A stretch of DNA of 64,000 nt from the NCBI RefSeq assembly GCF_030812335.1, contig NZ_JAUSSN010000005.1, positions 1 through 64,000 on the forward strand, written 5' to 3'. Position 1 is the first letter of the stretch. Each line of letters begins with the position of its first letter. The notes beneath the pieces are model-generated. The model was not told the DNA's origin. It did no database searches and saw only the letters and a list, made by a program, of their open reading frames with translations. Positions 16,639 through 27,788 of this stretch are shown piece by piece. The position numbers and the translations under genes are program-made. This DNA is from Pseudarthrobacter oxydans (GTDB taxonomy: Bacteria > Actinomycetota > Actinomycetes > Actinomycetales > Micrococcaceae).

Positions 16639-18231
16639 ATGCACAAGCACCCCCATACACCCCAGATGCTGCGGTGGCGCCGGGCCTCCGCAGTACTGGT
16701 AGCCGCCTTCGTGGCCTCAGCGTTTCTGGCCGCTCCCGCGGCGCAGGCCAACGAGCCTGCGGATCCGCCGGCGGCGCAGATGCCGGAGCCGACTCCCGGC
16801 TTCCCGCTGCCGACCAAGCACAGCCAGCAGGCGTACGATCCGGCGTCGGACTTCACGTCCAAGTGGACCCGGGCCGACGCCAAGCAGATCATGGCGCAGA
16901 GTGACCCCACGGTCGCCCCTGGTGAGAACTCCATGAACCCGAACGTCACCATGCCGGAAATCCCGGAAGACTTCCCCACCATGAATGAGGACGTCTGGGT
17001 CTGGGATACCTGGTCCCTCACCGACGAGAACGCGAACCAGATCAGCTACAAGGGCTGGGACGTCGTGTTCTCCCTGGTCGCTGACCGCAACGCCGGCTAC
17101 GGCTTCGACCAGCGTCACTGGAATGCCCGGATCGGCTACTTCTTCCGCAAGACCAACGCCGACCCGGCCAAGGACAAGTGGAACTACGGAGGCCACGTCT
17201 TCGCCGACGGGGCCTCGATCGGCAACACTGAATGGTCCGGTTCCACCCGCCTGATGCAGGGCAACCAGGTCAACGTGTTCTACACGGCCACCACGTTCTA
17301 CGATGTGGCCGAGCGCAACACCGGCGGCGGCGGGATCGCCCCGGACGCAGCCATCGCGAAGGCCCTGGGCAAGATCCACGCCGACCAGAACGGGGTCACC
17401 TTCGACGGCTTCCAGCACACCAAGCTGCTGGAACCGGATGGCACGATGTACCAGACCAAGGCCCAGAACCCGGGCTTCGCCTTCCGCGACCCGTACACGT
17501 TTGCGGACCCGGCGCACCCCGGCAAGACCTTCATGGTCTTCGAAGGCAACACCGGCGGAACCCGCGGACAATACGAGTGCAAGCAGGAGGACCTGGGCTA
17601 TCAGCCCGGTGACCCCAATGCCGAGGCCCTGAACGACGTCAACAGCAGCGGCGCCTACTTCCAGACCGCCAATGTGGGCCTGGCCGTGGCGGACAACAAG
17701 GACCTCACCAAGTGGTCCTTCCTGCCGCCGGTGCTGTCGGCGAACTGCGTCAATGACCAGACCGAGCGTCCGCAGATCTTCATCCAGAACGAGGGCGGCA
17801 AGAACAAGTACTACCTGTTCACGATCAGCCACCAGTTCACCTATGCGGCCGGCATGCGCGGCCCGGACGGTGTCTACGGCTTCGTAGGGGACGGGGTCCG
17901 TTCCGACTACCAGCCGATGAACAACAGCGGCCTGGCGCTGGCCTCACCGACCGACCTCAACCTGCCGTCAGAATCCCCGGAACGGCCCACCCCCAACCAG
18001 AACGGCCGGCAGTTCCAGGCCTACTCGCACTACGTGCAGCCCGGCGGCCTGGTGCAGTCGTTCATCGACAACGTCAACGGCGTCCGCGGCGGCTCCCTCT
18101 CGCCCACCGTGAAGATCAACTTCCGCGACGGTGTTTCAGCCGTTGACCGCACCTTCGGCCAGGACGGCCTCGGCCCGTTCGGTTACCTGCCCACCAACGT
18201 CAAAGTTGGCGGGAACGGCCTCTACAAGTAG
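16639..18231 (+). CDS. Secreted levansucrase (GH68)
   Basis: 530 residues. The signal peptide has a basic start (about 1-16) and a hydrophobic core, with cleavage after AAQA at about residue 37. The GH68 five-bladed propeller carries all three catalytic elements: nucleophile Asp123 in VWDTW, transition-state stabiliser Asp284 in FRDPY, and acid/base Glu376 in TERPQ. It splits sucrose and transfers fructose to make beta-2,6 levan (or fructo-oligosaccharides) outside the cell. The ATG is 16639; a GAGAG precedes it. A hairpin terminator lies 26 bp after the stop, then the GH32 gene. Control by a LacI-type repressor is inferred from the upstream operator. Distinction from inulosucrase cannot be made by eye, but bacterial levansucrase is the usual activity. 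Confidence 0.94.
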   Translation: MHKHPHTPQMLRWRRASAVLVAAFVASAFLAAPAAQANEPADPPAAQMPEPTPGFPLPTKHSQQAYDPASDFTSKWTRADAKQIMAQSDPTVAPGENSMNPNVTMPEIPEDFPTMNEDVWVWDTWSLTDENANQISYKGWDVVFSLVADRNAGYGFDQRHWNARIGYFFRKTNADPAKDKWNYGGHVFADGASIGNTEWSGSTRLMQGNQVNVFYTATTFYDVAERNTGGGGIAPDAAIAKALGKIHADQNGVTFDGFQHTKLLEPDGTMYQTKAQNPGFAFRDPYTFADPAHPGKTFMVFEGNTGGTRGQYECKQEDLGYQPGDPNAEALNDVNSSGAYFQTANVGLAVADNKDLTKWSFLPPVLSANCVNDQTERPQIFIQNEGGKNKYYLFTISHQFTYAAGMRGPDGVYGFVGDGVRSDYQPMNNSGLALASPTDLNLPSESPERPTPNQNGRQFQAYSHYVQPGGLVQSFIDNVNGVRGGSLSPTVKINFRDGVSAVDRTFGQDGLGPFGYLPTNVKVGGNGLYK

Positions 18232-18256
18232 CGCATCAATGAGGCAGTAACAGGGA

Positions 18257-18284
18257 GGAGGCGCCCGGGAATCCGGGCGCCTCC
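18257..18284 (+). terminator. Hairpin terminator or attenuator after levansucrase
   Basis: A perfect 12-bp GC-rich stem (18257-18268 with 18273-18284) around a GAAT loop. No T-run follows, so it may terminate only partly, or protect the levansucrase mRNA 3' end while allowing some read-through into the GH32 gene 94 bp downstream. Confidence 0.65.
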
Positions 18285-18377
18285 ATCCACCGTGTGTGCG
18301 GATGCCTGTGCTGGCCCACCAAGGTGGAACCGGCCCCAACGGCGTCACGTCACCACCAGAACCAGGAATGTTGAATT

Positions 18378-20402
18378 GTGAGAGACCTTGTCCGCCCGCA
18401 GGTGCTGAAAAAGTTGAAGCAACTTCGACGCAAGCGACCGCCAGCCTGGCTAATCAATGCGCTGAGCCCCCGCACGATCTGGATTGGTGTGGCGGCCGCG
18501 GCCGCGGCGGTTCTCGTCGCGGTGGCGTTGGTCCCGACGACGACGGGTTCCCGTCCGGCTGCCCGCGGCCAGGTCGAGCAGGCCCTTCTGGGCATCGCCG
18601 ACGCGCAGGCCGAAGCCATGGAATCCCAGGGCCGTTACGGCTCCTATTGGCTCAGCGGCGGTGACCGCACCCTCGAGAAGCTGACGCATCCGATCCGGAC
18701 CGAAGGCGTGGCGGATCTGCGGAGCATCGAATGCACCAACGGGTGGGTGGCAGCCGCACGGATCGGCGATGACGTCGAGATCAGGTCCAGCGTGGAAGAC
18801 CGGGTCGTTCGTGCAGGCACCGGTGAAGTCGTCCGCCCGGAGTGCATGTCTTCCGAAGCAGTTGCGTCCATGCTCTCGGATCTGGGCGTGCCGCGGCAGA
18901 CGCCGCCGCTCCCGGCTTCAGCTTTCGACCGGCCCGACGGGGCATCCGAGTTCCGGCCGAGCTATCACATCACGCCCCAGAAGAACTGGATGAATGATCC
19001 GCAGCGTCCGATCCTGCTGGACGGGCTGTGGCACTACTACTACCTCTACAACGCCGGGTATCCGACGGAAAACGGCACCGAGTGGTACCACCTGACCAGC
19101 ACAGACCTGGTGCACTGGAAAGACGAAGGGGTCGCGATCGCCAAGTACAAAAACGGGCTGGGCGACATCGAGACCGGAAGCGCCGTGGTGGACCATGACA
19201 ACTCGGCCGGCTTTGGCAAGGGGGCCGTTATCGCGGTCATGACGCAACAGGACCAGGGCATCCAGCGGCAATCCCTGTTCTATTCCAACGACAACGGATA
19301 CTCGTTCACCGAGTATGAGAACAACCCGATCATGGAAAACCCCGGCGAACCGGACTGGCGGGATCCCAAGATCATCCGCGATGAAGCCCACGGCCAGTGG
19401 GTGATGGCACTGGCCGAAGGCGAGAAGATCGGCATGTACACCTCCACGGACCTCAAGGACTGGCACTACTCTTCGGGCATCGAACGCACCGGTCTGGGCA
19501 CCCTGGAATGCCCGGAACTCTTCCAGCTGGATCTCGACGGGGATCCATCCAAACGGACCTGGGTCCTGGCCGCCAGCGCCAACGGGAGCGACGAGGGGTT
19601 CACCACGGGCGTTGCCTACTGGACTGGCTCTTGGGACGGAACCCGCTTCACCGCCACGGACGACGCGCATCAGTGGCTCGACGCCGGCTCCGACTTTTAT
19701 GCCGCCGTGACGTGGGATGATCCGAGGCTCACCGAAAGCCAGCGGATGTCCTCCCGGCACGCCGTCGGGTGGATGAACAACTGGACGTACGCCCGGCAGC
19801 TTCCCACCGAGGACTGGCACGGCGGTGCCGACTCCATTGTGCGCGACATCAGGCTGAAAACAATCACCGGAAAGCCGACCCTGGTGTCCAGCCCCACCGC
19901 AGCCATGAAGTCTATTGAAGGACCGGTGGCAACGGTCGGGGAACGTCGAATGACGCAGGAGGGCGCAGGGCAGCTACCGGCTCCGGAAGGCGGGGCCTAC
20001 AGGCTCGATGTGACGCTTGAACGGACGGCCGGCCAGGACGGATCCGAAGCGAGGATCGAGCTTGGAAGCGACAAGGGAACGTTCGCGACGGTCGGATATG
20101 ACTTCGCAAGTGAATCGGCATTCATTTCCCGCGATGCTGATGCCGCCGCCACCGGCAAGGCCGAACTCCACCCTGGCTACCGGGCATCGCGACGCACCGT
20201 CAGCCCGCCGCGGGAAGGGAAAGTCGAGCTGACAATGTTCGTCGACTATTCCTCAGTGGAGGTTTTCATCAATGGCGGGGAAAAGACCATGACGTCACTC
20301 GTGTTCCCGACCGGGGGGGCGCCGACCATCAACGCCGTCACGGCGGAGGGGTCCCTGACGCTCAAGTCCCTCAGTTACAGGCGGCTGGCCGCGACACGCT
20401 GA
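18378..20402 (+). CDS. Membrane-anchored GH32 levan-degrading enzyme
   Basis: 674 residues. A basic cytoplasmic stub is followed by one transmembrane helix (about 33-52), then a roughly 125-residue extracytoplasmic spacer, then the GH32 catalytic propeller from about 190 and a C-terminal beta-sandwich. Catalytic elements: nucleophile Asp207 in WMNDPQRP, Asp329 in WRDPK, acid/base Glu377 in TLECPEL. The Gln after NDP (instead of Asn-Gly) is, as far as I recall, seen in levan fructotransferases and levanbiohydrolases, so the product may be DFA IV or levanbiose rather than fructose; plain levanase is the alternative. GTG start with AGGA upstream. It follows levansucrase on the same strand and should act on the levan that enzyme makes, tethered to the cell. 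Confidence 0.87.
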   Translation: MRDLVRPQVLKKLKQLRRKRPPAWLINALSPRTIWIGVAAAAAAVLVAVALVPTTTGSRPAARGQVEQALLGIADAQAEAMESQGRYGSYWLSGGDRTLEKLTHPIRTEGVADLRSIECTNGWVAAARIGDDVEIRSSVEDRVVRAGTGEVVRPECMSSEAVASMLSDLGVPRQTPPLPASAFDRPDGASEFRPSYHITPQKNWMNDPQRPILLDGLWHYYYLYNAGYPTENGTEWYHLTSTDLVHWKDEGVAIAKYKNGLGDIETGSAVVDHDNSAGFGKGAVIAVMTQQDQGIQRQSLFYSNDNGYSFTEYENNPIMENPGEPDWRDPKIIRDEAHGQWVMALAEGEKIGMYTSTDLKDWHYSSGIERTGLGTLECPELFQLDLDGDPSKRTWVLAASANGSDEGFTTGVAYWTGSWDGTRFTATDDAHQWLDAGSDFYAAVTWDDPRLTESQRMSSRHAVGWMNNWTYARQLPTEDWHGGADSIVRDIRLKTITGKPTLVSSPTAAMKSIEGPVATVGERRMTQEGAGQLPAPEGGAYRLDVTLERTAGQDGSEARIELGSDKGTFATVGYDFASESAFISRDADAAATGKAELHPGYRASRRTVSPPREGKVELTMFVDYSSVEVFINGGEKTMTSLVFPTGGAPTINAVTAEGSLTLKSLSYRRLAATR

Positions 20403-23042: not shown

Positions 23043-24323
23043 ATGAAAACACCGAAGTTCTTACTTCCCGTCGCCGCAGCAGGCGTTCTAGCCTTGACTC
23101 TCTCCGCCTGTGGCGGCGGAGGAGGCGGCACGACCGCCGGCGCCGACGCCGAGCAAGGCCTCGACGGCCGCGGTCCCATCACGTACGTCCAGGGCAAGGA
23201 CAACAACAACGTGGTCCGCCCGGTGATCGAAAAATGGAATGCTGCCCACCCGAACGAGAAAGTCACGTTCAAGGAGCAGACCGACCAGGCCGACCAGCAG
23301 CACGATGACCTGGTCCAGAATTTCCAGGCCAAGAACGCCAACTACGACGTCGTCAGCGTCGACGTGGTGTGGACGGCCGAGTTCGCCGCTAAGGGCTGGC
23401 TCCAGCCGCTCAAGGACAAGATGGCGCTGGACACCTCGGCGATGCTGAAGCCGACGGTGGATGCGGCATCCTACAAGGGCACTCTGTACGCGGTACCGAA
23501 GGACTCCGACGGCGGCATGCTCTACTACCGCAAGGACTTGGTCCCCACGCCACCCAAGACTTGGGACGAGATGATGAGCATGTGCTCCATCGCCAAGGAG
23601 AACAACATCGGTTGCTTCGCCGGCCAATATTCCAAGTACGAGGGCCTCACTGTGAACACCGCAGAGGCGATCAACTCGACCGGGGGGTCCGTGCTGGATG
23701 CGGACGGCAAGCCGAACCTGAACACCCCCGAAGCCAAGGCTGGCCTCGGCAACCTCGTCACGGCATATGCCAACGGCAACATCCCGAAGGAAGGCATCAC
23801 CTTCCAGGAGGAGCAGGGCCGCCAGGCCTTCCAGGACGGCAAGTTGCTCTTCCACCGCAACTGGCCCTACATGTACAGCCTGGCAACGACGGAAGGGTCG
23901 TCGAAAGTCAAGGACGTCCTCGGCCTAGCGGCTCTGCCCGGCATTGACGGTCCCGGGGCATCGACGCTCGGCGGGCACAGCGTCGGCGTGAGTGTCTACT
24001 CGAAGAACAAGGCCACGGCCGTGGACTTCCTGAAGTTCATCACCACCGAGGAAACGCAGAGGTTCTACGCCACGCAGGGTTCACTCGCTCCGGTTCTCAG
24101 TGCGCTGTACGACGACCAGGAACTTGTCGCCAAGCTGCCGTACCTCCCGGTGCTGAAGACCTCCATCGAGAACGCCGTGCCGCGTCCTGTCACCCCGTTC
24201 TACCCGGCCGTCACGAAGGCCATCCAAGAAAATGCGTACGCTGCCATCAAGGGTGAGAAGACCGTTGATGCAGCCTTGTCCGACATGCAGAAGTCCATCG
24301 AGTCCGCTAGCGCGGGACAGTAG
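23043..24323 (+). CDS. Sugar ABC transporter solute-binding lipoprotein (CUT1)
   Basis: 426 residues. Lipoprotein signal peptide with lipobox LSAC (Cys23) followed by a Gly-rich linker. The mature part is a cluster-B (maltose/trehalose type) binding protein: VIEKWNAAHP, VSVDVVWTAEFAAKGWLQPL, YAVPKDSDGGMLYYRKDL and GGHSVGVSVYSKNK. It captures an oligosaccharide at the cell surface for the two permeases that follow (7 bp to the next gene). A GAGGAG lies upstream of the ATG. Operator-controlled and next to levan enzymes, so levan-derived fructo-oligosaccharides or DFA IV are the most likely substrates; this is inferred from context. Confidence 0.92.
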   Translation: MKTPKFLLPVAAAGVLALTLSACGGGGGGTTAGADAEQGLDGRGPITYVQGKDNNNVVRPVIEKWNAAHPNEKVTFKEQTDQADQQHDDLVQNFQAKNANYDVVSVDVVWTAEFAAKGWLQPLKDKMALDTSAMLKPTVDAASYKGTLYAVPKDSDGGMLYYRKDLVPTPPKTWDEMMSMCSIAKENNIGCFAGQYSKYEGLTVNTAEAINSTGGSVLDADGKPNLNTPEAKAGLGNLVTAYANGNIPKEGITFQEEQGRQAFQDGKLLFHRNWPYMYSLATTEGSSKVKDVLGLAALPGIDGPGASTLGGHSVGVSVYSKNKATAVDFLKFITTEETQRFYATQGSLAPVLSALYDDQELVAKLPYLPVLKTSIENAVPRPVTPFYPAVTKAIQENAYAAIKGEKTVDAALSDMQKSIESASAGQ

Positions 24324-24329
24324 CTAGCC

Positions 24330-25367
24330 ATGGCAACCGAATTGGGCCCGACGCCGGTCAAGGAACCGGCGTCGGGCGGTACCCCGATCCACCACGGGCC
24401 CAAGGGCGTCGGGGAGGATAACGCGATTGCGAGCCAGGGCAAGTGGGCCGCATGGCTCCTGGCTCCAACCATCGTCGCACTGGCCATCGTGATCGTTTAC
24501 CCGATCATCAGCGCCATCGTGATGTCATTCCAGAAGGACGCCGGCCTTGACCCCGTCACGGGGCTCTTCACCGAAGGCGGCCCGGCTGGCCTCTCGAATT
24601 ACACGAACTGGATCTTCCAGCAGTGCGCCGCCCCGGGCGGCGGAACCGTGGCCTGCCCGCCAGGAACCCTCGGCTCCCAGTTCTGGTCCGCCACGGGAAC
24701 GACCTTCTACTTCACCATCGTCACGGTGACGCTGGAGACGATCCTCGGCTTCTGGATGGCCATCATCATGGCGCGTACGTTCCGCGGACGCAGCCTGGTG
24801 CGCGCGGCCGTGCTGGTGCCGTGGGCCATCCCCACCGCCGTCACTGCCCAACTGTGGCTGTTCATCTTCGCTTTTGAGGGCATTGGCAACAAGCTGTTCA
24901 ACACCACAATCCTGTGGACGGGCAGCGAAAACCCGGCCCGCTGGGCCGTCATCATCGCCGACACCTGGAAAACGACGCCGTTCATGGCCCTGCTGATCCT
25001 AGCCGGGCTGCAAATGATTCCGGCCGACGTCTACGAAGCGGCCAAGGTCGACGGGGCTTCAGCGTGGCAGCGGTTCCGGATGATTACCCTGCCGCTGGTG
25101 AAGCCGGCGCTGATGGTCGCCATCCTCTTCCGGACGCTGGATGCCCTGCGGATGTTCGACCTCCCGTACATCCTGACGGAGGGCTCCAACAACACCACAA
25201 CGCTCTCCATCCTGGTGGTCAACCAACTCAGGCAGGGGTTTAACTCAGCCGCTGCCTTGTCGACCATTACGTTCATCATCATCTTCATTGTGGCCTTCAT
25301 CTTTGTCCGTTTCCTCGGAGCGAACGTCGTGGAGCAGCAGACCGGTGCAGGTAAGGGGAAGAAATGA
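24330..25367 (+). CDS. Sugar ABC transporter permease (MalF type)
   Basis: 345 residues, six transmembrane helices after a polar N-terminal region of about 45 residues. The EAA loop EAAKVDGASAWQRFRMITLPLVKP that contacts the ATPase is present in the C-terminal third. It stands between the binding protein and the second permease, overlapping the latter by 4 bases. Specificity follows the binding protein. Confidence 0.93.
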   Translation: MATELGPTPVKEPASGGTPIHHGPKGVGEDNAIASQGKWAAWLLAPTIVALAIVIVYPIISAIVMSFQKDAGLDPVTGLFTEGGPAGLSNYTNWIFQQCAAPGGGTVACPPGTLGSQFWSATGTTFYFTIVTVTLETILGFWMAIIMARTFRGRSLVRAAVLVPWAIPTAVTAQLWLFIFAFEGIGNKLFNTTILWTGSENPARWAVIIADTWKTTPFMALLILAGLQMIPADVYEAAKVDGASAWQRFRMITLPLVKPALMVAILFRTLDALRMFDLPYILTEGSNNTTTLSILVVNQLRQGFNSAAALSTITFIIIFIVAFIFVRFLGANVVEQQTGAGKGKK

Positions 25368-26251
25368 CCGCCGCGACCGAACTCCGTGCCAAGCAGGACC
25401 GTGGCCGCAAGGTGGCCCAGAACCGCGAGAAGTGGGCGAGCGTCCGCACCTATGTCAGTGCAGCCGTCATCCTGTTCTGGTGCCTCGCACCGGCCTACTG
25501 GATGGTGGTGACGGCGTTCCGCGAGGTGGGCTACACCTACGACACCTCACTCCTGCCCACTCACGTGACGCTCGACAACTTCAAAACAGCCTTCGATACA
25601 TCGTTTGGCAACAGGTTCGGCCAGGCGCTGCTGAACAGTGTGTTCATCGGCGTAACGGTGACCGTGATCTCGCTGGTGGTTGGCGTTTTCGCAGCCTATG
25701 CGCTGGCCCGGCTGAACTTCCGGTTCAAGTACCTGGTGCTGGGCTTCATCCTGGGGGCGTCCATGTTCCCCGGGGTCGCCCTCATCACCCCGCTGTTCCA
25801 GCTGTTCACCAATATCGGCTGGATCGGCACCTATCAGGCGCTGATCATTCCGAACATCTCCTTTGTCCTCCCGTTGACGGTCTACACCATGACGTCGTTC
25901 TTCCGGGAAATGCCGTGGGAGCTTGAGGAAGCAGCCCGGGTGGACGGCTGCACCCAGGGGCAGGCGTTCCGGCGGGTGATCATGCCGCTGGCGGCACCGG
26001 CCATCTTCACGACGGCGATCCTGGCGTTCATCTCCTCGTGGAATGAGTTCCTGATTGCCAGCCAGCTCTCCAATGATGCGACCCAGCCGGTGACGGTGGC
26101 CATTGCCAACTTCGCCGGGGCCCAGCCGCAGCAGATTCCCTACACGGCCATCATGGCCGCCGGAACGATCGTCACAATTCCGCTGGTGATCCTGGTGCTG
26201 ATCTTCCAGCGTAAGATCGTCGCGGGCCTCACCGCCGGCGCCGTGAAGTGA
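25364..26251 (+). CDS. Sugar ABC transporter permease (MalG type)
   Basis: 295 residues, six transmembrane helices. The EAA loop begins EEAARVDGCTQGQAFRRVI and continues MPLAAP. The ATG overlaps the stop of the first permease (ATGA). No ATP-binding gene follows, so the importer probably uses a shared MsiK-type ATPase encoded elsewhere, as is common for actinobacterial CUT1 systems. Confidence 0.93.
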   Translation: MTAATELRAKQDRGRKVAQNREKWASVRTYVSAAVILFWCLAPAYWMVVTAFREVGYTYDTSLLPTHVTLDNFKTAFDTSFGNRFGQALLNSVFIGVTVTVISLVVGVFAAYALARLNFRFKYLVLGFILGASMFPGVALITPLFQLFTNIGWIGTYQALIIPNISFVLPLTVYTMTSFFREMPWELEEAARVDGCTQGQAFRRVIMPLAAPAIFTTAILAFISSWNEFLIASQLSNDATQPVTVAIANFAGAQPQQIPYTAIMAAGTIVTIPLVILVLIFQRKIVAGLTAGAVK

Positions 26252-26261
26252 CGGCTTGGCC

Positions 26262-26516
26262 ATGAACAGCAAGCCGAGCCGCGGGCTGGTGCGCAGCCAA
26301 TACCGCCACGTCCGTTCCGGGGAGGATTTCGACATCATCATCGGTCTCCTCGGGTTCTGGGGACTGGTGCTGCTGGTGATCACCGTCTGGATGGAGGTGA
26401 CCGGCCAGCCAGCGCTGGGCTGGGCCCTGGGCCTGCTGGCCATGGTGTTGGCCCTGTACGGATTGATCCGGCTGCGCCGGCGCCTGCCCGAAAGGACGGC
26501 GTCCCGGCGCAAGTGA
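26262..26516 (+). CDS. Small two-helix membrane protein, hypothetical
   Basis: 84 residues with two hydrophobic segments (about 24-42 and 50-68), a polar N-terminus and a very basic C-terminus. ATG at 26262 is preferred; an in-frame TTG lies 6 bases earlier. It starts 10 bp after the MalG-type permease and is followed by a bipartite hairpin, so it is the last gene of the importer operon. Small membrane proteins of this kind often accompany actinobacterial sugar importers; function unknown. Confidence 0.68.
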   Translation: MNSKPSRGLVRSQYRHVRSGEDFDIIIGLLGFWGLVLLVITVWMEVTGQPALGWALGLLAMVLALYGLIRLRRRLPERTASRRK

Positions 26517-26576
26517 ACGCGGGGTCACCTGGCGCCCATCCCGAGGGGGTTTATGGGCGGAAAGTGACCCCGCGTT
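26516..26576. terminator. Two-tier hairpin, probable terminator/dispersed repeat
   Basis: Outer arms AACGCGGGGTCAC (26516-26528) and GTGACCCCGCGTT (26564-26576) are perfectly complementary. An inner pair CGCCCAT/ATGGGCG forms a second stem. It overlaps the last base of the small membrane protein's stop. The architecture resembles the element at 63545-63622, so it may belong to a family of intergenic palindromes that also end transcripts. Confidence 0.65.
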
Positions 26577-26672
26577 GCTTAAGCGGGGCATTTGTTGCCG
26601 TGGGGGAGGCAGGCTAATGGAGTGCTTCGGAGGCCGCGAGTTGCCTCAGGAGCCAGTCGACAAGGGGACACG

Positions 26673-27788
26673 GTGGCAAGGACGACAGACAGGGCACAGC
26701 GCGGGGGCCACTCCGGTGTCAGCATCGAAGATGTGGCCGCCGCCGCCGGAGTATCCACCGCCACCGTGTCCCGCGCCGTCCGCGGCCTGCCCAGGGTTTC
26801 GCCGGCCACCCGGGAGAAAATCCTGGGCATCGCCGCAGACCTGGGCTACGTCGCCTCCTCCTCGGCGTCCGGGCTGGCCACCGGGCGCACCAAGACCATC
26901 GGCGTGCTGGCCCCCTTCGTCAGCCGCTGGTTCTTCTCCAAGGCCATCGAGGGTTCCGACCGTCAACTGCACGCCCGCCAGTACAATCTGTCGCTCTTCA
27001 ACCTGGGCGGCCACGGCAGCAACCGCGAACGGCTCTTCAGCAAGACTATGGTCTACAAACAGATCGACGCGCTGCTGGTGCTGTGTATGGCACTGACCCA
27101 CGAGGAAATCGAACACCTGCAGAAGATCGACATCCCGCTGATCGTTGTCGGCGGCCACGTCGAGGAATGCCCCTACATCGGAATCGACGACTACGCCGCC
27201 GCCGCCACGGCCGTGCGGCACCTGATCGACCTCGGCCACACGGAGATCGCACTGCTGCACGGCGATGACGAAACGGACCTCAACTTCGACGTTCCCCGAG
27301 TCAGGATCCAGGGCTTCCAGGACGTCATGGCCGAAGCCGGCCTAAACGTCCGGAAGGAATGGGACGAATGGGGGGACTTCACGGTCCGCAGCGGCCAGGA
27401 CGCCTTTCACCGTCTCTGGGACAGGCCCGGACCGAAGCCCACGGCAATCTTTTGCGCCTCGGATGAGATGGCCATGGGGATCATCTTTGAGGCCACCCGG
27501 GCCGGGGTGAAGATCCCTGAGGACCTCTCCGTCATCGGGATCGACGACCACGACTTCTCCGAGGCCATGGGGCTCACCACGGTGCGGCAGCGACCGGACG
27601 AGCAGGCCGAACTGGCCACAAAAATGCTGCTGGACGAGCTCGACGGGATCGCCGGTTCAGTGCACTCCATGCTGGCCCCGCACGAGCTGATTGTCCGGAC
27701 CACGACGGCGCCGCCCCGCGGCGCGGAGGCTGCAGCCCGGAAGGGCGCCGCACCGGAGACTCTCATCCCTCGGGCCGGCCGCCCGTAG
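26673..27788 (+). CDS. LacI-family regulator of the fructan genes
   Basis: 371 residues. The N-terminal HTH is VSIEDVAAAAGVSTATVSRA followed by the hinge-helix region VRGLPRVSPATREKI (about 17-60). The periplasmic-binding-like sugar domain follows, for example GVLAPFVSRWFFSKAIEG, and GIDDHDFSEAMGLTTVRQ near the C-terminus. GTG start at 26673 with AAGGGG upstream. It lies downstream of the importer on the same strand, and two near-identical LacI-type operators are present upstream of the importer and of levansucrase, so it is the natural candidate repressor for both. The effector is probably a fructan breakdown product (inference). Confidence 0.9.
   Translation: MARTTDRAQRGGHSGVSIEDVAAAAGVSTATVSRAVRGLPRVSPATREKILGIAADLGYVASSSASGLATGRTKTIGVLAPFVSRWFFSKAIEGSDRQLHARQYNLSLFNLGGHGSNRERLFSKTMVYKQIDALLVLCMALTHEEIEHLQKIDIPLIVVGGHVEECPYIGIDDYAAAATAVRHLIDLGHTEIALLHGDDETDLNFDVPRVRIQGFQDVMAEAGLNVRKEWDEWGDFTVRSGQDAFHRLWDRPGPKPTAIFCASDEMAMGIIFEATRAGVKIPEDLSVIGIDDHDFSEAMGLTTVRQRPDEQAELATKMLLDELDGIAGSVHSMLAPHELIVRTTTAPPRGAEAAARKGAAPETLIPRAGRP

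Follow-up and report, generated by a model that had tools for sequence, protein, structure and literature searches.

The GH68-GH32 gene pair

We analysed a 64,000-nucleotide stretch of the Pseudarthrobacter oxydans genome (contig NZ_JAUSSN010000005.1, positions 1 to 64,000; hereafter the window), in which a gene for a secreted, levansucrase-type enzyme of family GH68 is followed by a gene for a membrane-anchored GH32 enzyme. All features described lie on the forward (+) strand. The GH68 gene (16639..18231) encodes 530 amino acids (aa) and matches PF02435 with 461.7 bits. Its best solved relative is the levansucrase 1w18 (607 bits), with which the motifs VWVWDTW, FRDP and TERPQ line up; enzymes named beta-fructofuranosidase are also among its close solved relatives. 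The N-terminal ~37 residues, ending in AAQA (16639..16749), resemble a signal peptide when the translation is read by eye.

The GH32 gene (18378..20402, 674 aa) was delimited from its open reading frame (ORF), Pfam matches, solved relatives and a structural model. It starts with GTG, 146 bases after the GH68 stop codon, and has an AGGA 10 bases upstream. The protein contains a catalytic propeller (aa 197-506, 18966..19895; PF00251, 239 bits) and a C-terminal beta-sandwich (aa 532-667, 19971..20378; PF08244, 74.5 bits). ORFs, Pfam, hydropathy and a helix in the AlphaFold model confirmed the arrangement described in the first-pass annotation of this DNA, a secreted GH68 enzyme followed by a GH32 enzyme with one membrane helix. 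Two features are additional to that description: an extra domain at ~aa 60-170 and an altered motif at aa 265-267.

Catalytic residues and the NDPQ motif

Residues 204-211 of the GH32 protein read WMNDPQRP. The NDPQRP motif reported earlier in place of NDPNG is thus present (aa 206-211, 18993..19010), and in the alignment with 9h8i and 4fff Asp207 is the nucleophile by homology. Likewise by homology, Asp329 of RDP (aa 328-330, 19359..19367) is the transition-state stabiliser and Glu377 of ECP (aa 377-379, 19506..19514) the acid/base; both motifs were invariant in one alignment and were also placed in a 199-row alignment. The 199 rows are distinct matches of at least 100 bits and at least 380 residues; two-piece GH32 proteins such as that of locus L104 (see below) hence lie outside them. 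The alignments showed that the catalytic triad and the pocket tryptophans Trp204 and Trp236 are retained. With its GH32 N- and C-terminal domains and its D/RDP/ECP triad the protein has these defining features of LevB.

The first-pass annotation had taken NDPQ as a mark of levan fructotransferases or levanbiohydrolases. The solved endolevanase LevB1 of Bacillus licheniformis (9h8i) reads NDPQKP, and NDPQ was found in 80 of 80 Bacillota loci, which were the best 80 of 544 confirmed relatives ranked against LevB1, all Bacillota by title; as they were selected with the patterns W[KML][NC]DPQ[RK]P or AYWTG, this count is partly built in. The relatives of the levan fructotransferase LftA were retrieved without use of the motif. 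Solved LftA (4fff) and nine fetched orthologs have CDPQ and two more distant relatives SDPQ, so that the residue before the nucleophile is Cys or Ser in 4fff and in all 11 fetched relatives (WL[CS]DPQRP), whereas it is Asn in the window GH32. In addition, 4fff and 10 of the 11 relatives (all but L234) carry an insertion of ~12 residues before RDP. The motif therefore indicates a wide NDPQ clan rather than a fructotransferase, and we dropped NDPQ as a marker of the latter. It follows that difructose anhydride IV (DFA IV), one of the two products suggested earlier, is not indicated, and its formation by the window GH32 is unlikely. The other suggested product, levanbiose, may still be formed, as it is also the main end product of LevB1 (PMC5245892, PMC9881289). 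A third form of the motif was seen in levP of phage phiNIT1 (L237:1007-2440), annotated as an endo-levanase: its nucleophile region, WMSDIQRP, is unlike both NDPQ and CDPQ.

Placement of the GH32 enzyme

Searched by sequence, the solved relatives of the window GH32 ranked LevB1 (9h8i, 366 bits) above LftA (226 bits) and an exo-inulinase (218 bits); identity to LevB1 was ~41% over the catalytic part. Trees of 88 rows (quick) and 60 rows (careful) were built from rows chosen by hand among the 199, with NDPNG rows as outgroup; for both the program warned of a long outgroup branch. In the 60-row tree the window-type enzymes and a sister group with a WTG motif formed one clade (100/99), and Bacillota LevB, actinobacterial LevB-like enzymes and LftA a second (99/97). 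The 88-row tree agreed with this. The window GH32 is thus, as judged from its sequence, a member of the wide NDPQ clan with LevB and LftA, on a branch of its own.

The phylogenetic check proposed with the first-pass annotation, placement relative to LftA and LevB, gave a divided answer. In the free trees the window-type enzymes stood apart from LevB plus LftA and did not join the latter. When window-type enzymes, sister group and LftA were forced into one clade, the cost was 11 log units and the approximately unbiased (AU) test gave p 0.09. Six genomes (G001, G740, G698, G721, G725 and G734) carry a gene for an LftA relative in addition to one for a window-type or sister-type enzyme.

Wider scans for the GH32 enzyme (E limits 1e-80 and 1e-75), whose counts pool window-type with other LevB-like enzymes, found matches in 42 of 295 genomes of the family, 14 of 396 of the order and 4 of 396 of the phylum. 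The four phylum genomes are that of the window, one more from its genus, and two whose enzymes share 41-45% identity. Among the open-licence papers listed, none reported an assay for the window branch.

A glutamate in the GH32 pocket motif

In the 199-row alignment the window protein has ETG (aa 265-267, 19170..19178) in place of the (W/F)(S/T)G pocket motif of GH32. The pocket position is Trp in 132 rows, Glu in 62, Phe in four and Gln in one. Glu is found in every window-type row of the genus sample (57) and otherwise only in five relatives, of which one belongs to another family. The nine rows of the sister group read GDIWTGS and L221 reads GDIQTGS; Bacillota LevB rows have Trp, and the window GH32 thus lacks the W(S/T)G that characterises LevB. 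The Glu rows formed one clade in the 60-row tree with weak support (84/52), and the positions of L220 and of L221 were unsettled in the quick tree. The Glu thus belongs to the window lineage, and an origin by a single Trp-to-Glu change is likely. The aromatic residue of (W/F)SG is described as kept across GH32 enzymes; of two yeast exo-inulinase variants, F113L had no activity and F113W was impaired towards inulin (PMC7545266).

Membrane helix and pilin-like domain

Hydropathy and the AlphaFold model agreed on a transmembrane helix at aa 31-50 (18468..18527), with basic residues ahead of it; the best 19-residue hydrophobic window was aa 34-52 (mean hydropathy 2.67). This pattern predicts an N-in, C-out orientation, which would place the catalytic part outside the cell. 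Of the 57 same-genus window-type frames, 55 have a strongly hydrophobic stretch ahead of the enzyme, whether or not they carry the extra domain; the two open frames without such a stretch are L066 and L079.

The extra domain of ~110 residues (~aa 60-170, 18555..18887), delimited from models of high predicted local distance difference test score and from structure and profile searches, was recognised by a C..GW.A pattern in 36 of 57 window-type GH32s (a count that includes L079); the others have a short linker. On the quick enzyme tree its distribution needs at least five changes and would fit a single gain followed by several losses. In a VIA-align search rows 1-20 were all type IV pilins or pseudopilins (Z 7.4-4.4), unrelated proteins appearing from 4.2, and the top Foldseek match was the pilin 4bhr (E 0.28). 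The best Z stays below 8, and since best values of 7 to 8 are common for models without a clear match, a pilin fold is likely, not proven. Sequence searches yielded little: the best E in a PDB search was 0.94, and Pfam over 37 domain members gave weak matches only (INV_N in 11, best E 0.0023; DUF7283 in seven, best E 0.00088), which are taken to be the membrane helix.

To look for a class III signal peptide, with Gly ahead of the hydrophobic tract and Glu5, we searched the first 40 letters of 37 rows for G....E; 36 rows lacked it, and in the remaining one (L060) the match lies beyond the membrane helix. In the model the helix is interrupted between residues 51 and 59. We therefore do not call the domain a pilin, and it is probably not a filament subunit.

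Two weak matches apart, the domain was seen on this GH32 only in the genomes searched. In 41 same-genus genomes all 10 profile matches fell at window-type GH32s, one of them (G019) covering the membrane stretch only, and three matches in 197 family genomes also fell at window-type GH32s. Two weak family matches (E 1.8e-4 and 3.9e-4) were judged to be chance, as the ORFs listed in those loci look unrelated. The second match in the window's own genome (E 0.1) lies in a region without a similar protein. Among the open-licence matches listed, none described a levanase with a pilin, a pilin-like glycoside hydrolase, an actinobacterial membrane-anchored levanase or an Arthrobacter levanase with levansucrase.

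Co-occurrence of the two enzymes

Of 121 same-genus genomes, 57 have a window-type GH32 and every one of them also has GH68, compared with 26 of the other 64 (Fisher 1.7e-14, without correction for kinship). The paralogous LevB-like GH32, which has a twin-arginine-like N-terminus, showed no such link (GH68 in 9/11 vs 74/110). Constant company of GH68 fits an enzyme acting on the cell's own levan.

The two genes are adjacent, in the same order and on the same strand, in 20 of the 57 genomes including that of the window, with 105-375 bp between the matches; given this recurrence, the pair is not due to chance. Where they are not adjacent, they share a contig in 23 genomes (91-160 kb apart in 20, farther in three). 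Adjacency needs at least five changes on the quick enzyme tree, so the genes were joined or separated more than once.

Between the two genes of the window a GC-rich hairpin with a 12-bp stem and a 4-base loop, lacking a U tract, was read off the sequence (18257..18284). The 130 bases after the GH68 stop codon, which may extend into the GH32 gene, had a fold z of -4.81 in the window. Folding took in 15 of the 20 adjacent pairs; z was below -2 in 13 and weaker in two (-0.71 and -1.84). GC-rich hairpins of varying sequence were seen between GH68 and GH32 in many adjacent pairs (L042, L055, L056, L065 and others). A scan for promoters and terminators detected no signal above shuffles. The hairpin may be terminator- or attenuator-like, with partial termination possible, and GH68 and GH32 are therefore perhaps not always cotranscribed.

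Sugar importer and further GH32 loci

A sugar importer with a LacI regulator (23043..27788; Pfam scan) lies downstream: binding protein at 23043, permeases at 24330 and 25364, regulator at 26592. Between GH68 and the importer are small ORFs that are putatively Asp23-like. The importer survey covered 91 of 94 importer-positive genomes and 89 of 90 GH68 places, with weaker matches and one GH68 fragment omitted. In 41 of the 89 GH68 loci the binding protein gene followed GH68 on the same strand at a distance of 4.3-6.6 kb, and the importer occurred without GH68 in 29 sampled genomes. Only two adjacent GH68-GH32 pairs, those of the window and of one relative, had the importer within 12 kb. Because of the 29 genomes without GH68 the importer substrate is unreadable from the GH68-GH32 pair. 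The earlier suggestion that the importer takes up the GH32 product is thus weakly founded, and we no longer regard the importer as one for levan that belongs with the pair. In four genomes (G016, G036, G086 and G115) GH68 occurs twice, once close to the importer and once next to GH32; in G086 the importer-side copy is interrupted by stop codons.

Contig C10 of the window's own genome carries another cluster (L104:14829-19001 and L105:114-1763) with a LacI regulator, a binding protein, two permeases and an NDPNG GH32, in which no signal was visible by eye. As a fructo-oligosaccharide importer this cluster would be more plausible than the importer of the window. The same contig encodes, in a single open frame (L104:5869-8583), a secreted-type NDPNG GH32 of 904 aa, whose catalytic domain match is interrupted by ~340 inserted residues. 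In eight loci (L093-L097 and L101-L103) the gene next to a distant NDPNG GH32 encodes a LevB-like GH32 that reads KNDPQRP and GDCWSG and has a twin-arginine-like N-terminus.

Proposed function of the GH32 enzyme

We propose, with a probability of roughly 0.55, that the window GH32 is a membrane-tethered hydrolase of the cell's own levan, most likely endo-acting. The secreted GH68 enzyme would build levan, or a beta-2,6 fructan, from sucrose around the cell. One N-terminal helix would hold the GH32 enzyme in the membrane with its catalytic part outside, and the small pilin-like domain, absent from some relatives, would space it off the membrane. Hydrolysis of the cell's own levan would follow the retaining mechanism usual in GH32, with Asp207 as nucleophile, Asp329 as stabiliser and Glu377 as acid/base. 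Cuts would fall most likely at internal bonds and release short beta-2,6 oligosaccharides, levanbiose included. The match of NDPQ(R/K) and the full triad to LevB is counted for the endolevanase reading; activity on levan is predicted, whereas the endo mode, the product sizes and the roles of Glu265 and of the pilin-like part are guesses.

Several observations weigh against this proposal. In the free trees the enzyme lies outside the clade of the characterised LevB, and LftA has a higher structural Z (45.2) than any other solved entry, LevB1 included (41.6, from a chain with fewer residues). Glu265 occupies a position that is normally aromatic and at which a Leu substitution inactivated the yeast inulinase. 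The association with GH68 comes from a single genus, within which the two genes are non-adjacent in 37 of 57 genomes, and the intergenic hairpin may be compatible with separate transcription. That the GH68 product is levan, or a beta-2,6 fructan, is likewise a prediction from sequence. Finally, overall identity is reported to be unable to tell endo- from exo-levanases (PMC5245892).

A rival reading is that the tethered enzyme is an exo-acting levanbiohydrolase, releasing levanbiose from chain ends. The mode can shift within the clan: the exo-acting levanases of Streptomyces exfoliatus and Microbacterium laevaniformans are up to 60% identical to the Bacillus endo-levanase (PMC5245892). At such identity these two would belong to the LevB branch, whereas the window GH32 is 41% identical to LevB1; we regard a levanbiohydrolase as unlikely. 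An altered specificity brought about by Glu265, for another fructan or a charged or branched fructoside, or a mainly transfructosylating enzyme, appears quite unlikely to us. It would account for a Glu where 136 of the other 137 rows are aromatic, with Trp in the sister group and Gln in one relative, but the triad, Trp204 and Trp236 are retained and co-occurrence with GH68 is complete in the genus sample.

GH32 enzymes are mostly exo-acting, which speaks for an exo-levanase freeing fructose at the cell surface, and as the NDPNG rows served as outgroup the trees do not bear on a tie to them. We nevertheless hold this to be very unlikely, as the motif is NDPQ and not NDPNG and the genome has a separate secreted-type NDPNG enzyme. 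In favour of a levan fructotransferase making DFA IV, as raised in the first-pass annotation, LftA ranks second among solved relatives by sequence and first by Z, and the AU test did not reject the common clade. Against it stand Cys or Ser before the nucleophile in LftA and its 11 relatives, the insertion before RDP in 11 of these 12 and in none of the 62 Glu rows (window protein included), the coexistence of LftA relatives as separate genes in six genomes, and the free trees, which group LftA with LevB. We consider it highly improbable, and membership of the window GH32 among the fructotransferases was dropped on motif and insertion, the AU test alone leaving it at p 0.09.

Comparison with known systems

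By comparison with published clusters the GH68-GH32 tandem is ordinary: a levansucrase gene clustered with levB is described for Bacillus subtilis, Priestia koreensis and Cellulosimicrobium cellulans (PMC11540611). Like the Bacillus sacB-levB operon, the window has GH68 followed by an NDPQ-type GH32 with ~41% identity over the catalytic part; unlike Bacillus LevB and LevB1, its GH32 is on its own branch in free trees and has ETG instead of W(S/T)G. It also differs in its transmembrane anchor and pilin-like domain, the Priestia LevB being described with a Sec signal (PMC11540611). The sacC1-levB-sacC2-ls cluster of C. cellulans MP1 is similar in combining an actinobacterial levansucrase with levB, a likeness drawn from its description only (PMC11540611). 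LftA of Paenarthrobacter ureafaciens (4FFF) shares the family, DPQRP and a close fold (Z ~45) and differs in its C/S before the nucleophile, its insertion before RDP, its grouping with LevB and its presence as a paralog in six genomes.

Modular type IV pilins such as PilB of Streptococcus sanguinis resemble the window GH32 in having an N-terminal helix, a pilin-like fold and a large C-terminal module; the GH32 protein differs in the missing class III signal and in the break of the helix between its membrane part and the domain. Modular pilins with grafted functional modules are reported to number more than 1,200 proteins in 264 architectures (PMC8179133), which could include a GH32. BT1760 of Bacteroides thetaiotaomicron is likewise a cell-surface GH32 acting on levan, an endo-levanase (PMC6560043), but is remote in sequence (18% over the structural alignment). 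We know of no levansucrase partner of BT1760. Three elements could not be matched: the separate GH32 branch, the Glu in its pocket motif (ETG), and a fructanase stalk that resembles a pilin. A broader proposal, that these define a GH32 subfamily in which a levan-processing enzyme sits on a pilin-derived, non-filament anchor, a Glu in place of the aromatic pocket wall alters specificity or product, and the levan coat is trimmed unlike by any characterised levanase, is tentative and, in our estimate, doubtful.

The findings remove a misleading motif rule, as NDPQ is no mark of levan fructotransferases. The lineage offers a natural experiment on a GH32 pocket residue, with Trp in the sister group, Gln in one relative and Glu in the window-type enzymes. 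If the assignment of the pilin-like domain, variably present in close relatives, is true, a pilin fold would serve outside a filament as the membrane stalk of an enzyme. The gene pair itself provides a test case for how bacteria handle their own levan: the putative cutter, which would be held at the membrane, never occurs without the maker in the genus sample.

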